Part shown: in pieces, positions 1 through 10,266 of the stretch
How the letters are laid out: each line of letters begins with the position of its first letter
Numbering within the stretch: the first letter of the stretch is position 1
DNA from: Nitrospirae bacterium GWC2_42_7
GTDB lineage: Bacteria > Nitrospirota > Thermodesulfovibrionia > Thermodesulfovibrionales > UBA6898
Reading direction: 5' to 3'
Length of the DNA: 10,266 bases
Assembly (NCBI GenBank): GCA_001803645.1
Contig: MHDW01000217.1
Span: forward strand, 1 to 10,266
The notes under the pieces: generated by a model
Databases searched by the model: none
The model's input: only the letters and a program-made list of their open reading frames with translations
What the model was told of the DNA's origin: nothing
Translations under genes and position numbers: made by a program

Positions 1-674
1 CTAATGGACAATATGGGGTTGATGCCTTTGCTCCATCGTTTCTGTCAGAAGATAAATTCCAATCTGGCGCGCAAGGGCTGCTGCTACAGGTTCAGTAAAA
101 AATATCCATATATGTCCTCCGTTGCCTGAACGTGATCTTTCAAGATATGCCGGGATGTTATTGCTCTTGCATGTCACCATGAATGCTTTTACATCGTCCT
201 GCCAGCTCTTTTTATCGAAGTCAGCAGCCAGAAAGTGGCAGGTTTCATCCTGCAATAATGGGTAAACTCCGGCTGTAATGCGACCATCAAGATGTCGTCT
301 GATTACCTCATCGGTGAGCAGTGCAAATAGCCGGTTTTCACATTCTCCGCACTTGACTGCTGGTTTTTTGCATATTCCGGTCACCCATTCCTTTCCGCAG
401 ACTGGGCTGTATCCTTTGGCCCCAGTCTTCTTGCTCGTCCACAGTTTTGGATAAACATCTTCACGGCCTTTGAAAAGGTTCCGGAAAATGGAGAGTTTTT
501 TCTCCAGAGAAATCGAAGCAACAGACGGAGATTGGGGTGCGTGTATTTGGGATAGTTGAGACTGTATGTTCTTTCTTTTAGGATGGAGCCGCGCTCGATC
601 TCGATCTCTTGCAGACTGGCTTGGAGGGCTGCTATAGCCGAGTGGAGAGATTGTTCGTCGTCAGCAAAATGCAT
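1..674 (-). pseudogene. Frameshifted and truncated TOTE-type archaeo-eukaryotic primase
   Basis: This is the N-terminal part of an archaeo-eukaryotic primase (AEP) of the kind found in TOTE conflict systems, where it is normally fused or linked to a helicase. It reads in two frames. From the ATG at 674 a coiled-coil-like start (DEQSLHSAIAALQASLQEIE) is encoded. Around 545-585 the coding signal moves to the -1 frame, which then reads LEKKLSIFRNLFKGREDVYP and, after 384, WVTGICKKPAVKCGECENR with a CxxC pair. The catalytic AEP motifs are present: DFD (codons near 220-214) and SGNGGH with its His at 112-114. After METMEQRHQ-like sequence the match ends abruptly in PHIVH and a stop at 1-3, where family members normally continue with a SYDRxFPNQD-like segment. 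It starts 6 nt after the PIN toxin gene and has no visible ribosome site. It is most likely a decayed gene; a sequencing error could explain the frameshift but not the lost C-terminus. Confidence 0.72.
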
Positions 675-680
675 GAGAAA

Positions 681-1082
681 TCAGCTTAGCAGGGCAAATC
701 CAAACTGTCTGAAATGTGAATCAAAAGCAAATGCGTTTCTGATCTTTAGTCTTTCCATGAGTGCGAAACTTGTGCAGTCTGTGAATGAGAAATCCTTGTC
801 GTTATACTTCTCAAGAATCTTCCATGCCCTTTCCCAATCCTGCGTAATTATGGGCACAATTTTCAAATAAGAAATTATTTTCAATTTGTCGGCAAAACTG
901 ATCGTTGCTTTGTTCCCGATAGTTCTTAAAAGCAGATTGTATGTCTCAACAAGCACAAGATCCGAGGTAATAAGTTGTTCTCTTCCAAGTATAAGTTTGG
1001 TATATAACCGTCCGGCTTCCTTGTAATGCTGGTCATTTCTGTCTGTAATCGCAATCCACGCACCGGCATCAACAAAAATCAT
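681..1082 (-). CDS. PIN-domain toxin (VapC-like ribonuclease)
   Basis: A 133-residue PIN-domain protein, the usual size for VapC-type toxins that cleave RNA with bound Mg2+/Mn2+. The acidic active-site set is visible: Asp5 in FVDAGAWIA, Glu46 in VLVETYNLL, Asp102 in SFTDCTSFA and Asp121 in AFAFDSHF, so the enzyme appears intact. Its ATG (1082-1080) overlaps the TAA of the upstream antitoxin gene by one base, implying translational coupling and a toxin-antitoxin operon. The partner is of the DUF104/AF2212-like class rather than AbrB-like, which distinguishes this pair from the second module at 2247-2904. The decayed primase follows 6 nt downstream on the same strand. RNA target cannot be told from sequence. 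Confidence 0.88.
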   Translation of the reverse strand: MIFVDAGAWIAITDRNDQHYKEAGRLYTKLILGREQLITSDLVLVETYNLLLRTIGNKATISFADKLKIISYLKIVPIITQDWERAWKILEKYNDKDFSFTDCTSFALMERLKIRNAFAFDSHFRQFGFALLS

Positions 1083-2246: not shown

Positions 2247-2501
2247 ATGTCAACAATAACCAAAAAAGGGCAAGTGACGATACCAAAGCCTTTTCGAGAC
2301 AATCTACACATAAAAGAAGGTGATAATCTTTTGTTTGAGCTGAAAGGTGATACGCTGATTTTAAAGAAGATGGAAAGAAAATCAATACTAAGCCTTGGTG
2401 GAATTGCAAAAGGCAGAAAGATCGGATTTGGGGACGAGAGAGAATTTACCCAAAAAGTTATTGCGAAGAGGATTGCAAAAGAGGGCTTAAAGGGTGGATA
2501 A
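2247..2501 (+). CDS. vapB: SpoVT/AbrB-domain antitoxin (VapB-like)
   Basis: An 84-residue antitoxin with an N-terminal swapped-hairpin SpoVT/AbrB DNA-binding domain (residues 1-45: STITKKGQVTIPKPFRDNL, then the KEGDNLLFEL turn typical of the fold). The C-terminal half (SILSLGGIAKGRKIGF and a charged helix) is expected to block the toxin. The ribosome site GGAGGT at 2235-2240 lies 6 nt before the ATG. The gene overlaps the following PIN toxin by 8 nt, so antitoxin and toxin are co-translated. A promoter and a repeat-rich operator candidate lie directly upstream, consistent with self-repression. Confidence 0.9.
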   Translation: MSTITKKGQVTIPKPFRDNLHIKEGDNLLFELKGDTLILKKMERKSILSLGGIAKGRKIGFGDEREFTQKVIAKRIAKEGLKGG

Positions 2502-2904
2502 CCCTATTTTTGTTGATACTAATGTGTTCCTGAGATTTTTTGTCAGAGATGTTGAGACCTTTTACCATAAGGCTAAGGATTTCTTTGAAAAAGGGGAAAG
2601 CGGTCAGCTTAAGCTTGAAACAAGCGACTTAGTGATTGCTGAAATCGTGTGGGTTCTTGAATCATATTATGATTTTTCAAAGCCAGAGATAAAAGAAGTG
2701 GTTGAAACAATTCTCGAAACAAAAAATCTCAAAGTGGCTAACAATTCAAGAGTCAAAGAGGCAATTAACCTTTATTCTTCCGGGAAAATGGACTTTATTG
2801 ATGCATATAACATTGCCTATATAAAGGCAAAAGATTTCAAAAAAGTTGCGACGTTTGATGTTAAGCATTTTAAAAATATAGAGGGTGTTTCAAATGTTTG
2901 GTAA
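2494..2904 (+). CDS. vapC: VapC-type PIN-domain toxin ribonuclease
   Basis: A 136-residue PIN-domain endoribonuclease, toxin partner of the AbrB-like antitoxin encoded just before it. The active-site acids are visible: Asp8 in IFVDTNVFLRF, Glu50 in LVIAEIVWVLE, Asp103 in MDFIDAYNIA (Asp100 nearby) and Asp122 in VATFDVKHF. The start is the GTG at 2494 inside the end of vapB, preceded by a GAGGG-like ribosome site; the GTG and 8-nt overlap would keep toxin output tied to, and below, antitoxin output. There is no sign of damage. This is a different subfamily from the PIN toxin at 681-1082, which has a DUF104 antitoxin. Confidence 0.92.
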   Translation: MDNPIFVDTNVFLRFFVRDVETFYHKAKDFFEKGESGQLKLETSDLVIAEIVWVLESYYDFSKPEIKEVVETILETKNLKVANNSRVKEAINLYSSGKMDFIDAYNIAYIKAKDFKKVATFDVKHFKNIEGVSNVW

Positions 2905-3001: not shown

Positions 3002-3229
3002 ATGTATGCTAGTAACAATAATACACCCGTTTATTCAATAACCAAAGACGATTTACAAATTGAGGCCAAAAGAATTTTGGGGCGAGAACTTGATGAATCT
3101 GAAATTCTTCAAGCCAAAAAGTATTTAGAATTTGGAATAGGAGAAAGTATTGGGATTATTTACAGCACTATTTTCAATGAAGTAAATGAACAACCCTGTA
3201 GCAAGCTACAGGGTTGTTCATTTGACTGA
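3002..3229 (+). CDS. Small hypothetical protein
   Basis: A 75-residue protein I do not recognise. A good ribosome site (AGGAAGG at 2991-2997) precedes the ATG. Residues 13-60 look like a helical domain (ITKDDLQIEAKRILGREL, DESEILQAKKYLEFGIGESI) with the periodicity of a soluble helical bundle; there is no membrane segment or signal peptide. The last 14 or so residues (NEQPCSKLQGCSFD) are encoded by a large perfect inverted repeat, so the natural C-terminus may have been replaced when that element arrived, or the gene simply runs through its own terminator. It lies downstream of vapBC with a 97-nt gap and is probably transcribed separately. Confidence 0.55.
   Translation: MYASNNNTPVYSITKDDLQIEAKRILGRELDESEILQAKKYLEFGIGESIGIIYSTIFNEVNEQPCSKLQGCSFD
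3184..3223. terminator. 19-bp perfect inverted repeat, probable terminator hairpin
   Basis: AAATGAACAACCCTGTAGC (3184-3202) and its exact reverse complement (3205-3223) are separated by only two bases, AA. Such a stem would stop transcription of the small gene upstream and isolate mltG; the A-run on one side and T-run on the other are short (three each) and symmetric, so it could act in both directions. Because the U-tract is poor, it may instead be a mobile palindromic repeat. Confidence 0.55.
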
Positions 3230-6163: not shown

Positions 6164-6628
6164 ATGAACGATATCCTTTTAAATATAATCGAAAAATACC
6201 GTAAAAAGAACGGCAACATCATTTTTCTTCTGCAGGAAACTCAGGAAGCCTTAGGATATATCCCAAAACAGGCAATAGATCTTTTTTCAGAAGAACTTAA
6301 TATTGCGCCTAGCCGGATCTACGGAGTTGCAACATTTTATTCGCAGTTCAGACTTAAGCCAACCGGGAAAAATATAATAGTGGCCTGTTGCGGCACAGCA
6401 TGTCATGTGAAAGGCGCAGAGAAAATTATAAATGGTTTACGCAAAGGCCTTGAGCTTGCAGAGGATGAAGATACTACCCCGGATGGTGAATTCACTCTTG
6501 AGGAGATCGCCTGCCTGGGAACATGCAGTTTTGCCCCTGTTGTTCTCGTCAATAGTGCTGTGTATGGGAAGGCAAATATAAATGCCCTGCTGAAAAAAAT
6601 AGGCTCAAAAAGGAAAAAAAGTGCATAA
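6164..6628 (+). CDS. nuoE: NuoE-like [2Fe-2S] subunit of NAD-linked formate dehydrogenase
   Basis: A 154-residue thioredoxin-like [2Fe-2S] protein of the NuoE/HndA/FdsG family, which passes electrons in soluble NAD(P)-linked hydrogenases and formate dehydrogenases. The N-terminal helical bundle (IPKQAIDLFSEELNIAPS, RIYGVATFYSQF) is followed by the ferredoxin fold with cluster cysteines Cys75 and Cys80 in VACCGTACHVKGA and Cys117 and Cys121 in ACLGTCSFAP. An additional Cys76 sits next to the first ligand. The ATG has no strong ribosome site; the frame holds no better start. Its last 8 nt overlap the GTG start of the NuoF-like gene, so the two are co-translated. It belongs to a formate dehydrogenase rather than to complex I because the alpha subunit follows and no membrane subunits are seen. 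Confidence 0.93.
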   Translation: MNDILLNIIEKYRKKNGNIIFLLQETQEALGYIPKQAIDLFSEELNIAPSRIYGVATFYSQFRLKPTGKNIIVACCGTACHVKGAEKIINGLRKGLELAEDEDTTPDGEFTLEEIACLGTCSFAPVVLVNSAVYGKANINALLKKIGSKRKKSA

Positions 6629-8399
6629 AGAAATAGTCATAAGGGTATGCATGGGCCCTGGGGGCATAGCAGCAGGAGGGAAGGAAGTACTTGGATCATT
6701 CCGGGAGCATCTTTTAAAGGCCGGCATATTTGCAAAACTCAAAGAAAAATGTTCTTCCCATCAGGTGGGTTGTCTGGGCCTCTGTGCTCGGGACGTGCTT
6801 GTCGAAGTACATATAAACCGTAATAAAACTGTTTATCAGTATGTGAAGCCAGACATGGTCGAAAGAATAGTAAGCGAGCATATTTCAGGGGGCAAACCTG
6901 TTGAAGAATGGCTTGCAGATGATACCTTCAAGACATTCTATGGAAAACAGATGAAGATCGTGCTTGCAGATTGCGGCAAGGTTGATCCTGAAGATATAAA
7001 TTCATATATATATTCAGGAGGCTATGAACCAACACGGGAAGTTCTTACGTCGTGGATTCCGGATGATGTAATAGACGAGATCAAAACCTCAGGGCTCAGG
7101 GGCCGCGGCGGTGCAGGCTTTCCCACAGGCCTTAAATGGGAACTCGCCAGAAGAAGCAAGAGTGAGATCAAATACATCATATGCAATGCTGATGAAGGTG
7201 ACCCCGGCGCATTTATGGACAGGGCTGTAATTGAGGGCAACCCCCATTCTGTAATAGAAGGGATGATCATTGGCGCTTTTGCGATCGGATCGAACAAAGG
7301 ATATGTTTATATCAGAGCAGAGTATCCTCTCGCTGTAGAACGCCTGAAGATTGCCCTCAAACAGGCGTATGAACGCAGATTTCTTGGGAAAAATATATTT
7401 AATACAAGCTTCAGCTTTGATATTGATATCAAACTCGGTGCAGGTGCTTTTGTCTGCGGTGAGGAGACCGCCCTTATTGCTTCAATTGAAGGACAGAGGG
7501 GTATGCCGAGGCCAAAACCACCCTTCCCGATAAGCAAGGGCTTATGGCAGAGGCCGACTGTAATTAACAATGTAGAGACCCTTGCAAACATCCCCTATAT
7601 TATCAGAAAGGGCGCAGGCTGGTATTCTTCATTTGGTACTGAAAAGTCTAAAGGCACAAAGGTTTTCGCTCTTACAGGAAAGATCAGGAACACAGGGCTG
7701 ATCGAAGTTCCTATGGGTATTTCTTTAAGGGAGATAATCTATGAGATAGGAGGGGGAATTGAAGGGGGCAAGGCTCTGAAGGCGGTCCAGACAGGCGGAC
7801 CTTCAGGCGGATGCATACCTGCAAGCATGCTTGACCTGAATGTTGACTATGAGTCACTCGCAAAGGCCGGTTCTATCGTGGGCTCAGGAGGAATGATCGT
7901 GCTTGATGAGGACAATTGCATGGTCAACATGGCCAAGTACTTCATCCAGTTCACACAGGCTGAATCCTGCGGCAAATGTGTGCCTTGCAGGGTAGGCACA
8001 AAGAGACTGCTCGAGATACTTGAGAGGATCACAAAAGGACAAGGCAGGGATGGTGATATAGAACGACTTGAACGGCTCTGCAACGGTGTTAAGAATACAT
8101 CTCTCTGCGGCTTGGGGCAGACAGCTCCCAACCCGATACTAAGCACCATCAGATATTTCAGGGAAGAGTATGAGACACATATAAGAGATAAAAAATGTCC
8201 TGCAAAGGTCTGTAAAGACCTTCTTATATACAGTATCATCGAAGAAAAATGTAAAGGCTGCGGTACATGTATGAAGGCATGTCCTTCAGGAGCAATAACC
8301 GGAGATAAGAAGAAGCCGCACAAAATAGATCCAAATAAGTGCATAAGATGCGGTGCCTGTTTTGATGTATGCAAATTCAAGTCAGTAGGAAGGGATTAG
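6621..8399 (+). CDS. nuoF: NuoF-like diaphorase subunit (NADH/FMN, Fe-S) of formate dehydrogenase
   Basis: A 592-residue flavoprotein of the long NuoF/HndC/FdsB type that moves electrons to NAD(P)+. Residues 1-80 form an N-terminal thioredoxin-like domain: Cys10 in RVCMGPGGIAAGG, Cys44, and Cys51/Cys55 in VGCLGLCAR; the position expected for the second ligand of the first pair is Gly15. The FMN/NADH core shows GLRGRGGAGFPTGLKWE (159-174), ICNADEGDPGAF and GAGAFVCGEETALIASIEG (273-291). The N3 [4Fe-4S] site is SCGKCVPCR (Cys450, 453, 456) with Cys496 in SLCGLG. The C-terminus adds a two-[4Fe-4S] ferredoxin domain (Cys544/547/550/554 and Cys574/577/580/584), which could receive or split electrons with ferredoxin. 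The start is the GTG at 6621, with AGGA just before. The fdhF start follows after 2 nt. Confidence 0.95.
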   Translation: MHKEIVIRVCMGPGGIAAGGKEVLGSFREHLLKAGIFAKLKEKCSSHQVGCLGLCARDVLVEVHINRNKTVYQYVKPDMVERIVSEHISGGKPVEEWLADDTFKTFYGKQMKIVLADCGKVDPEDINSYIYSGGYEPTREVLTSWIPDDVIDEIKTSGLRGRGGAGFPTGLKWELARRSKSEIKYIICNADEGDPGAFMDRAVIEGNPHSVIEGMIIGAFAIGSNKGYVYIRAEYPLAVERLKIALKQAYERRFLGKNIFNTSFSFDIDIKLGAGAFVCGEETALIASIEGQRGMPRPKPPFPISKGLWQRPTVINNVETLANIPYIIRKGAGWYSSFGTEKSKGTKVFALTGKIRNTGLIEVPMGISLREIIYEIGGGIEGGKALKAVQTGGPSGGCIPASMLDLNVDYESLAKAGSIVGSGGMIVLDEDNCMVNMAKYFIQFTQAESCGKCVPCRVGTKRLLEILERITKGQGRDGDIERLERLCNGVKNTSLCGLGQTAPNPILSTIRYFREEYETHIRDKKCPAKVCKDLLIYSIIEEKCKGCGTCMKACPSGAITGDKKKPHKIDPNKCIRCGACFDVCKFKSVGRD

Positions 8400-8401
8400 A
8401 T

Positions 8402-10266
8402 ATGATCAAATTGACCATTGACGGTAAATTGATAGAGGTCCCTGCAGAAAAAACGATACTTGAAGCAGCAAGGATTGCCGGCATATCGATCCCAACACTC
8501 TGCCATCATCCTAAGCTGACGCCTTTTGGCGGGTGCAGATTATGCATTGTTGAGGTAAAGGGAATACCAAGGCTTGTAACTTCATGCACTACAACCGTTA
8601 GCGAGGGAATGGAAGTCCTGACCTCAACTCCTGATATCGAAGATATGAGAAAGTTTGTGCTGGAGCTCATACTGTCCGACCATCCCAATGACTGCATGGT
8701 ATGTGAAAAGTCAGGGAGTTGTGCCCTTCAGGAACTTGCGTATAAATACGACATAAGAGAGAACGAATTTTCAGGCGAAAGAAGGATCTATACAAAAAGG
8801 GACGGCAATCCTTTTATCGAAAGAGACCTCGAGAAGTGCATAATGTGCGGAAGGTGCGTGAAGGTCTGTGATGAAGTGCAGGGGGTGGAGGCTATTGACT
8901 TCGGGAACAGGGGATTCAATACAAAGATATGCACATCGTTTGAGGAAGACCTTGATTGCGAGTTCTGTGGACAATGTGTGGCTGTATGCCCTACCGGCGC
9001 ATTAACAGGCAAACTTTGGGCCCATACAGGAAGGCTGGATGATGTAAAAGAAGTTAATACGATATGTCCATATTGCGGTACAGGCTGCAACATAACCGTT
9101 CATGTGAAAGATAATGAAATAATAAGGGTGACTTCAGGGAAAGAGACATGGAACGAGGGATGGTTATGCGTTAAAGGCAGGTTTGGATACAAGTTCGTTA
9201 GTAGCCCTGAACGACTTACAAAACCATTGATAAGAATAGTTCCAAAAACAAAGGGGAAGCCAGAAGTCAGGAGTCAGAAGTCAGAAGTAAAAAAACAAAA
9301 GGAAGACAATTTTTTACCCATCACCCATTACTCTTCACTCTTTAGGGAGGCTTCATGGGATGAGGCGCTTGATCATGTAGCAGCAAAGCTTAAGGAAATT
9401 AAAACAAAATATGGACCTGATGCTATTGCCGGACTCTCATCAGCAAGGTGTACGAACGAAGAGAACTACATATTTCAGAAGTTCATCAGGGCTGCAATAG
9501 GTACAAACAATGTAGACCACTGTGCCCGTCTTTGACACGCCCCTACTGTGGCCGGTCTGGCCGCAATCTTCGGATCAGGGGCAATGACAAATTCTATCAG
9601 AGAGATAGAGGGCATGGAGGTCATCTTCATAATAGGCTCCAATACAAAAGAGACGCATCCTGTGATAGCAAACAGGATGATAAAGGCATACAGAAAAGGC
9701 GCCAAGATCATTGTTGCTGATCCGAGGAATGTGCCGATGGTAAAATTCGCAGATACATTTCTGAGGATGAGACCCGGCACTGACATTGCACTCCTGAACT
9801 GTATAGCCCATGTGATCCTTGAAGAAGGACTTCAGAACAAGGAGTTTATCAAAGAAAAGACAGAAGGGTTTGAAGAATGGAAAAAATCTCTCAAAGAGTT
9901 TACACCGGAGTATGCAGAGAAGATAACCGGGATCCCAAAGGGAGAGATAATAAAGGCTGCGCGTCTTTACGGTAGTTCACGTAAAGCAGGAATCTTCTAT
10001 ACAATGGGAATAACCCAGCATACATGCGGCACAGACAATGTAAAGGCAATAGCAAACCTTGCAACCCTTACAGGAAATATCGGCAGGGAATTTACCGGCA
10101 TAAATCCGCTGAGGGGGCAGAACAATGTTCAGGGAGCATCAGATGCAGCATGCCTGCCGAATGTCTATCCCGGATATCAGAAGGTGGACATAGCGGAAAA
10201 CCGGGAGAAGTTCGAGAAGGCATGGGAAGTTTCTTTGTCATCTGCGCCGGGGCTTACAGCTACGGA
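8402..10266 (+). CDS. fdhF: Selenocysteine-containing formate dehydrogenase alpha subunit (NuoG-like N-terminus), partial
   Basis: The catalytic molybdopterin subunit, 621 codons in the window and open at the right edge. It oxidises formate to CO2 at a Mo/W-bis-MGD site. The N-terminus carries a [2Fe-2S] domain (Cys34, 45, 48, 62), a His-Cys cluster (His94, Cys98, 101, 107), two [4Fe-4S] clusters (Cys146/149/152/156 and 186/189/192/196), then the FDH cluster Cys222/225/229/256 with Lys258. Codon 378 is TGA (9533-9535), read as selenocysteine: it sits in DHCARL-U-HAPTVAGL, His379 follows, Arg571 in NPLRGQNNVQG is 193 residues later as in E. coli FdhF (Sec140, Arg333), and a SECIS hairpin follows. 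FDH sequence continues past the TGA without a stop. Start is the ATG at 8402 with AGGAAGGG at 8387-8394, not the in-frame ATG at 8369 inside nuoF. Residues about 279-317 contain a repeat-derived insertion. Confidence 0.96.
9262..9289 (+). repeat. 7-bp direct repeats (AGTCAG units) inside fdhF
   Basis: AGTCAG occurs at 9265, 9272 and 9279, with a decayed unit AGTAAA at 9286, giving a strict 7-bp period. The A-rich stretch after it leads into CCCATCACCCATTACTC (9318-9334), another low-complexity sequence that I remember from intergenic repeats. The tract is inside an intact coding frame. Confidence 0.7.
9533..9565 (+). promoter_or_regulatory. Selenocysteine UGA and bacterial SECIS hairpin
   Basis: The UGA is followed after 18 nt by the loop GGUCU (9554-9558), held by a 7-bp stem TGTGGCC (9547-9553) with GGCCGCA (9559-9565), including one G-U pair. 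The loop sequence and its 18-nt distance from the UGA match E. coli fdhF as I recall it. SelB with Sec-tRNA would bind this loop to recode the UGA. SelA, SelB, SelC and SelD genes are not in the window. Confidence 0.93.

Follow-up and report, generated by a model that had tools for sequence, protein, structure and literature searches.

The window analysed here, a stretch of 10,266 nucleotides of contig MHDW01000217.1 from Nitrospirae bacterium GWC2_42_7, ends within fdhA, a gene encoding a formate dehydrogenase (FDH) alpha subunit whose N-terminal Fe-S region resembles NuoG (8402..10264, plus strand). The assignment is based on open reading frames, on NCBIfam matches (Fdh-alpha, E 1.7e-156; NuoG, E 8.3e-111) and on the Pfam domains Molybdopterin and Molybdop_Fe4S4. 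The gene comprises 621 codons from the ATG at 8402 up to the contig end and its C-terminus is missing; in this incomplete state, it matches Fdh-alpha with 522 bits, below the cut-off of 666. Upstream of fdhA and on the same strand are found a gene for a NuoE-like subunit with a 2Fe-2S thioredoxin fold (6164..6628; Pfam PF01257, E 6.7e-44, the NCBIfam NuoE models being below cut-off) and a gene for a NuoF-like subunit (FMN, 4Fe-4S; 6621..8399; Pfam PF01512 and PF10589, and NCBIfam NuoF, PRK13596.1, above cut-off), the latter putatively forming the side that interacts with NAD(P)H in the complex. Elsewhere in the window, domain matches point to two PIN-domain genes, possibly toxins of toxin-antitoxin pairs (681-1082, minus strand; 2494-2904, plus strand), and to a TOTE-type primase domain on a fragment (1-384, minus strand). 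A long inverted repeat at 3183-3225, upstream of a YceG-like gene, has only sub-threshold Rfam matches and is perhaps a terminator.

An earlier note on this DNA, made from its letters only, had proposed that the apparent stop in fdhA is a selenocysteine (Sec) codon, and its description of the frame was accurate: the TGA at 9533-9535 (plus strand) is the single stop counted from the ATG, it falls at the catalytic position (residue 378), and FDH sequence resumes in frame after it (HAPTVAGL, GQNNVQG), the frame staying open to the contig end. In the translation, the putative Sec is adjoined by His379 (9536..9538, plus strand), and the arginine of RGQNN is residue 571 (10112..10114, plus strand), which gives a distance of 193 from Sec378. 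This is, as the note had also said, the spacing of Escherichia coli K-12 FdhF, in which the two residues are Sec140 and Arg333. His379 and Arg571 presumably have the catalytic role that these residues have in the family. The codon stands in the in-frame sequence UHAP, with FDH alpha sequence on both sides, in agreement with UHxP, the motif listed for the Sec-containing FDH alpha subunit in PMC13188914. FdhF (PDB 1aa6) gives a sequence match of 379.8 bits that begins at residue 216 of the window protein, since it is without the N-terminal NuoG-like region, whereas the alpha subunits of the NAD-dependent FDHs PDB 9wxb and 6tg9 (the best matches) and 7e5z share the two-part architecture of the window protein and match it from residue 2 or 4 to 619-620; 9wxb has, in the printed alignment, Cys at the position of the putative Sec. 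Among the matches listed, two same-family genomes carry FDHs with 75-78% identity. The FDHs of the Nitrospirota MAG contigs JACRHE010000163.1 (L062) and MHDU01000077.1 (L063), 75-76% identical over the whole query, have at the same site both the TGA and a hairpin with an xGUCU or GGCCU loop (GGCCU in L063), but differ from the window in the inserts of the linker that connects the Fe4S4 domain with the Mo/W domain. The identities in the same-family genomes and in these MAGs suggest that the window belongs to Nitrospirota.

The hairpin of the window is SECIS-like and lies downstream of the TGA on the plus strand (9547..9565), with the stem at 9547-9553/9559-9565 and the loop GGUCU at 9554-9558; it was recognised by folding, by a below-cut-off match to Rfam SECIS_3 and by its conservation relative to a synonymous-codon null. 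Folding of 9533-9565 gives 7 bp, including one U-G pair, a 5-nt loop and -11.4 kcal/mol. The stem starts 11 nt and the loop 18 nt from the TGA; thus, of the 7-bp stem with a GGUCU loop that had been placed 18 nt after the TGA, stem and loop stand, while the distance fits the loop and not the stem. In the E. coli FdhF SECIS, the loop GGUCU also occupies nt 22-26, the U of UGA being nt 1, bases which we take to be functional there, whereas the stem sequence differs. The published bacterial SECIS model, as given in PMC13188914, has a loop of 3-9 nt with a G in its first two positions, an upper stem of 4-16 bp, a UGA-to-loop distance of 16-37 nt and a minimum free energy of at most -7.5 kcal/mol, and the window hairpin falls within every one of these ranges. 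In Rfam, the SECIS_3 (RF01989) match at 9530-9588 scores 37.4 bits (E 1.3e-5) and does not reach the curated gathering cut-off of 63; the word "textbook" of the earlier note suits the position and the loop better than the Rfam score. For the window sequence alone, folded at lengths of 33, 48 and 71 nt, the energy z-scores were unremarkable (-0.86, -0.25 and -2.60, respectively). In 100,000 synonymous-codon redraws of the window only, 3.3% had the 7 bp and 5.5% an xGUCU loop, while the two occurred together in 0.17%. With an Rfam match below cut-off and a single-hairpin energy that is not unusual, a comparative test was needed.

This test used 124 homologous rows from 122 loci, some of which are one genome taken from two collections, and for this reason the hairpin statistics were restricted to distinct rows (97 with TGA and 13 with Cys, still related by descent). 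The script that built the rows accepted a stop or Cys only if His came next, and every locus yielded a row; the window copy (L021) was excluded, and ten loci (L159-L168) were selected for the absence of a stop, so that 10 of the 12 Cys loci in the added set had been chosen for lacking one. The codon at the Sec site is TGA in 109 rows, TGT in 8 and TGC in 7, and never TAA or TAG. Likewise, among the matches listed, 12 of the 13 that cover nearly the full query, the window's own gene included, have one TGA. In the null model, the codons of each row were redrawn among synonyms 500 times with the usage of the surrounding frame. The inner six pairs are all formed in 80 of the 97 distinct TGA rows (null mean 11.7, maximum 21) and 91 of these rows have an xGUCU loop (null mean 12.4, maximum 21), while each of these features occurs in just one of the 13 distinct Cys rows (null means 0.2 and 1.9, respectively). 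Pair 18-30, formed by two third codon positions, is GC in 74 rows, UA in 10, AU in 9, GU in 2, UG in 1 and the mismatch AG in 1; the outermost pair 15-33 has no conservation in the TGA rows. Since the deviant loops of the TGA rows are GGGCU (4), GGCCU (1) and AGUUU (1), U24 and C25 are not absolute. The comparative signal is much stronger than that of the window-only redraws, and we read it as RNA-level selection on the hairpin that would be linked to UGA, with compensatory changes at third positions.

These observations bear directly on the possibility that the TGA is a true stop, the locus being then a pseudogene or encoding two proteins, the second one from the GTG at 9548. Such a start does exist 13 nt past the stop, with the frame open to the contig end, and the failure to find selC and selD in the bin would agree with it; however, a true stop accounts neither for a codon that is TGA or Cys in every row nor for a hairpin selected at synonymous sites, and a second FDH alpha gene of the same bin (G000 C200, L169) has a TGA as well, also with a GGUCU-loop hairpin. 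A true stop is thus regarded as very unlikely.

If the TGA is read as Sec, the machinery for this amino acid is expected in the organism, and the earlier note had stated that it must carry selABCD. The search of the genome that it proposed gave half of the set: in the window's own bin (G000; 238 contigs, 70.8% complete), SelA (609.3 bits) and SelB (391.6 bits, with SelB winged-helix domains) are both above curated cut-offs on contig C177, while tRNA-Sec was not found in this bin with the Rfam model, a relatives-built model or a motif search (at most 150 candidates per genome being scored with the models), and SelD had no match above cut-off. A selD match on contig C102 (65.3 bits against a cut-off of 125, with AIRS domains) was rejected as a probable ThiL-like relative. 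An overlap of selC with selB is reported for a groundwater Nitrospirae lineage in PMC8124441; it was sought on the selB stretch of C177 and not found. We assume that the organism has selC and selD in the portion of its genome that the bin does not cover.

The relatives provide a broader picture of this trait. With at most 57 candidates scored per genome, tRNA-Sec reaches at least 65 bits in 51 of 61 related genomes and the Rfam cut-off is passed in 53, the two further passes being a tRNA with a Cys anticodon in G020 and one of 47.7 bits in G058. For the UCA tRNAs, ARAGORN was given 28 loci from 26 genomes and calls tRNA-SeC at every one. Ten of the 11 genomes checked have SelA, with G005 as the exception, and SelD is above cut-off in 24 of the 27 family genomes, all except G000, G023 (66% complete) and G005. 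Each of these 24 SelDs has an in-frame TGA within the match covering its start (L196-L199 and others), and SelD is therefore probably a selenoprotein itself. It is important to note that, among the 11 genomes checked for SelA, nine that possess it gave no recognised UCA tRNA-Sec with the Rfam model, the relatives-built model or the motif search: the own bin, G006, G007, G012, G016, G018, G020, G046 and G058, of which G007 consists of one contig, with a completeness rating of 91%. One motif match in G007 (3 mismatches, 22 tRNA-Sec-like bases) was discarded, as ARAGORN finds no tRNA there and the flanks are unlike tRNA-Sec, and a comparable match in G006 is also not called a tRNA by ARAGORN. Unless sequence is missing or the searches were limited, the UGA in the FDH and SelD of these nine genomes would be decoded by a divergent tRNA overlooked by the models, which is considered unlikely.

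Decoding of the UGA as Cys, by a tRNA-Sec-like tRNA-Cys (selC*) with a UCA anticodon, should also be considered. Such selC* tRNAs have been described, some of them with UCA, in PMC7609411, and Sec-like tRNAs with a Cys anticodon do occur in the order (G020 and 11 of 13 further regions). Nonetheless, these tRNAs have GCA instead of UCA, the UCA tRNAs of the relatives are the ones that ARAGORN assigns to Sec, the bin contains SelA and one SelB above cut-off, and no selC*-like UCA tRNA was seen in the search of the own bin, all of which leaves Cys decoding extremely improbable. The long-arm GCA tRNAs themselves (G020 C115, L204 1164-1258; L228-L232; L234-L239) match the selC* tRNA-Cys described for Nitrospirae in PMC7609411. 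Finally, that TGA is an ordinary sense codon in this organism (code 4 or 25) is practically inconceivable: nothing but the open frame favours it, and an altered code is contradicted by ordinary TGA stops, which end two of seven further ORFs of the window and two of seven on C177, all 14 ORFs having the expected length or an overlap with the neighbour that we regard as normal.

A natural control for the Sec reading is offered by G005, a 99% complete relative with TGT at the Sec codon, whose bases are identical to those of the HGW-Nitrospira-1 record PGYF01000069.1 over the stretch compared. In this 99% complete genome there is no SelA match and no SelD above cut-off, and tRNA-Sec was not found; the joint absence of the TGA and of the machinery supports the Sec reading in the window. 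G005 is also the only distinct Cys row in which the six inner pairs are intact, with the loop GGACU, and we read this hairpin as a probable SECIS relic. Its congener G012 has kept SelA and a TGA in SelD, and tRNA-Sec was not found there. The apparent loss of the Sec trait in G005, with Cys at the codon and the stem kept, looks like a recent Sec-to-Cys change, of which seven events are tabulated for FdhA in PMC1794560.

According to the codon pattern (109 TGA and 15 Cys in 124 rows), the conserved hairpin, the presence of selA and selB in the bin and the G005 control, the main proposal of the earlier note is upheld: TGA 9533-9535 almost certainly encodes Sec in the alpha subunit of a Nitrospirota FDH that is associated with NuoEF and probably depends on NAD(P). 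SelB would bind the hairpin just downstream of the UGA and bring Sec-tRNA(Sec) to it in place of termination, and the side chain of Sec would then be a Mo or W ligand in the formate site, where it would have His379 as its neighbour and act with Arg571. Sec decoding, metal ligation and activity are known for the FDH family. We infer that the window FDH likewise incorporates Sec in the cell, binds the metal through it and is active; the high activity stated in the earlier note and the existence of selC and selD in this organism are inferences too. Sequence alone could hardly make the Sec assignment more secure; in having a stop read as Sec, the gene resembles those of many known formate dehydrogenases and is ordinary.

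A distinct feature of fdhA is an extra in-frame linker with GAAGTCA-type heptamers (residues 279-311; 9236..9334, plus strand), unmatched in many paralogues; among the matches listed, those of shorter homologues stop at residue 278 and restart near 312. The length of the segment that joins the Fe4S4 domain to the Mo/W domain was measured between two motifs in the 74 of 109 distinct linkers that could be parsed: 40 of them have 37 or 39 residues, and the remaining 34 have 44-81. The additional residues vary by lineage and are in frame and repeat-like (RSQKSEV, SSLVTRHSSLF, NPPLSKGGRGGV and others). Such inserts were seen in the window, L025, L027, L029, L083, L084, P0041 and others, and P0041, 88% identical to the window protein, has a quite different one at the same site. 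The string RSQKSE was not found in the literature text searched. At the DNA level, a 20-base pattern of the GAAGTCA-type repeat (at most one mismatch) gave 21 matches, spread over 14 places and 5 of the 27 family genomes, against one match for the reversed pattern used as control. These places are on C154 (L208), C172 (L213), C177 (L217; in the QueC gene) and C217 (L227) of G000, and also in G003, G005, G009 and G022. Eleven of the 14 lie in frame and in open orientation within frames of at least 311 codons, 70 or more codons away from either end; two are close to the end of a frame or contig and one is beside masked bases. Since a bacterial genome is mostly coding, such placement is no proof that the repeat favours genes. 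The linker is a length hot spot, and its inserts look like translated dispersed repeats. The Rickettsia palindromic elements, which are found inside genes, are similar.

With regard to the databases, the protein copy of the window FDH has 377 aa and ends just before residue 378, and two relatives, which match 61% of the query at 88% and 83% identity, stop at the same residue (P0026, P0041 and P0080 are the three truncated records), as had been anticipated for automated gene calls. Naive ORFs are split at the TGA site in four of five relatives, and in the fifth the gene is hidden by a long antisense ORF. Among the best 120 of 7,999 scored candidates (those sharing most words), 112 homologues have Cys at the Sec position, with which the in-frame TGA is thus aligned; of the other eight, three are truncated, four were not parsed and one gave W. 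The linker inserts may be more interesting than the Sec codon itself. The reading of the codon as Sec, for its part, corrects a truncated public protein and would show the use of selenium in the formate metabolism of this Nitrospirota lineage.
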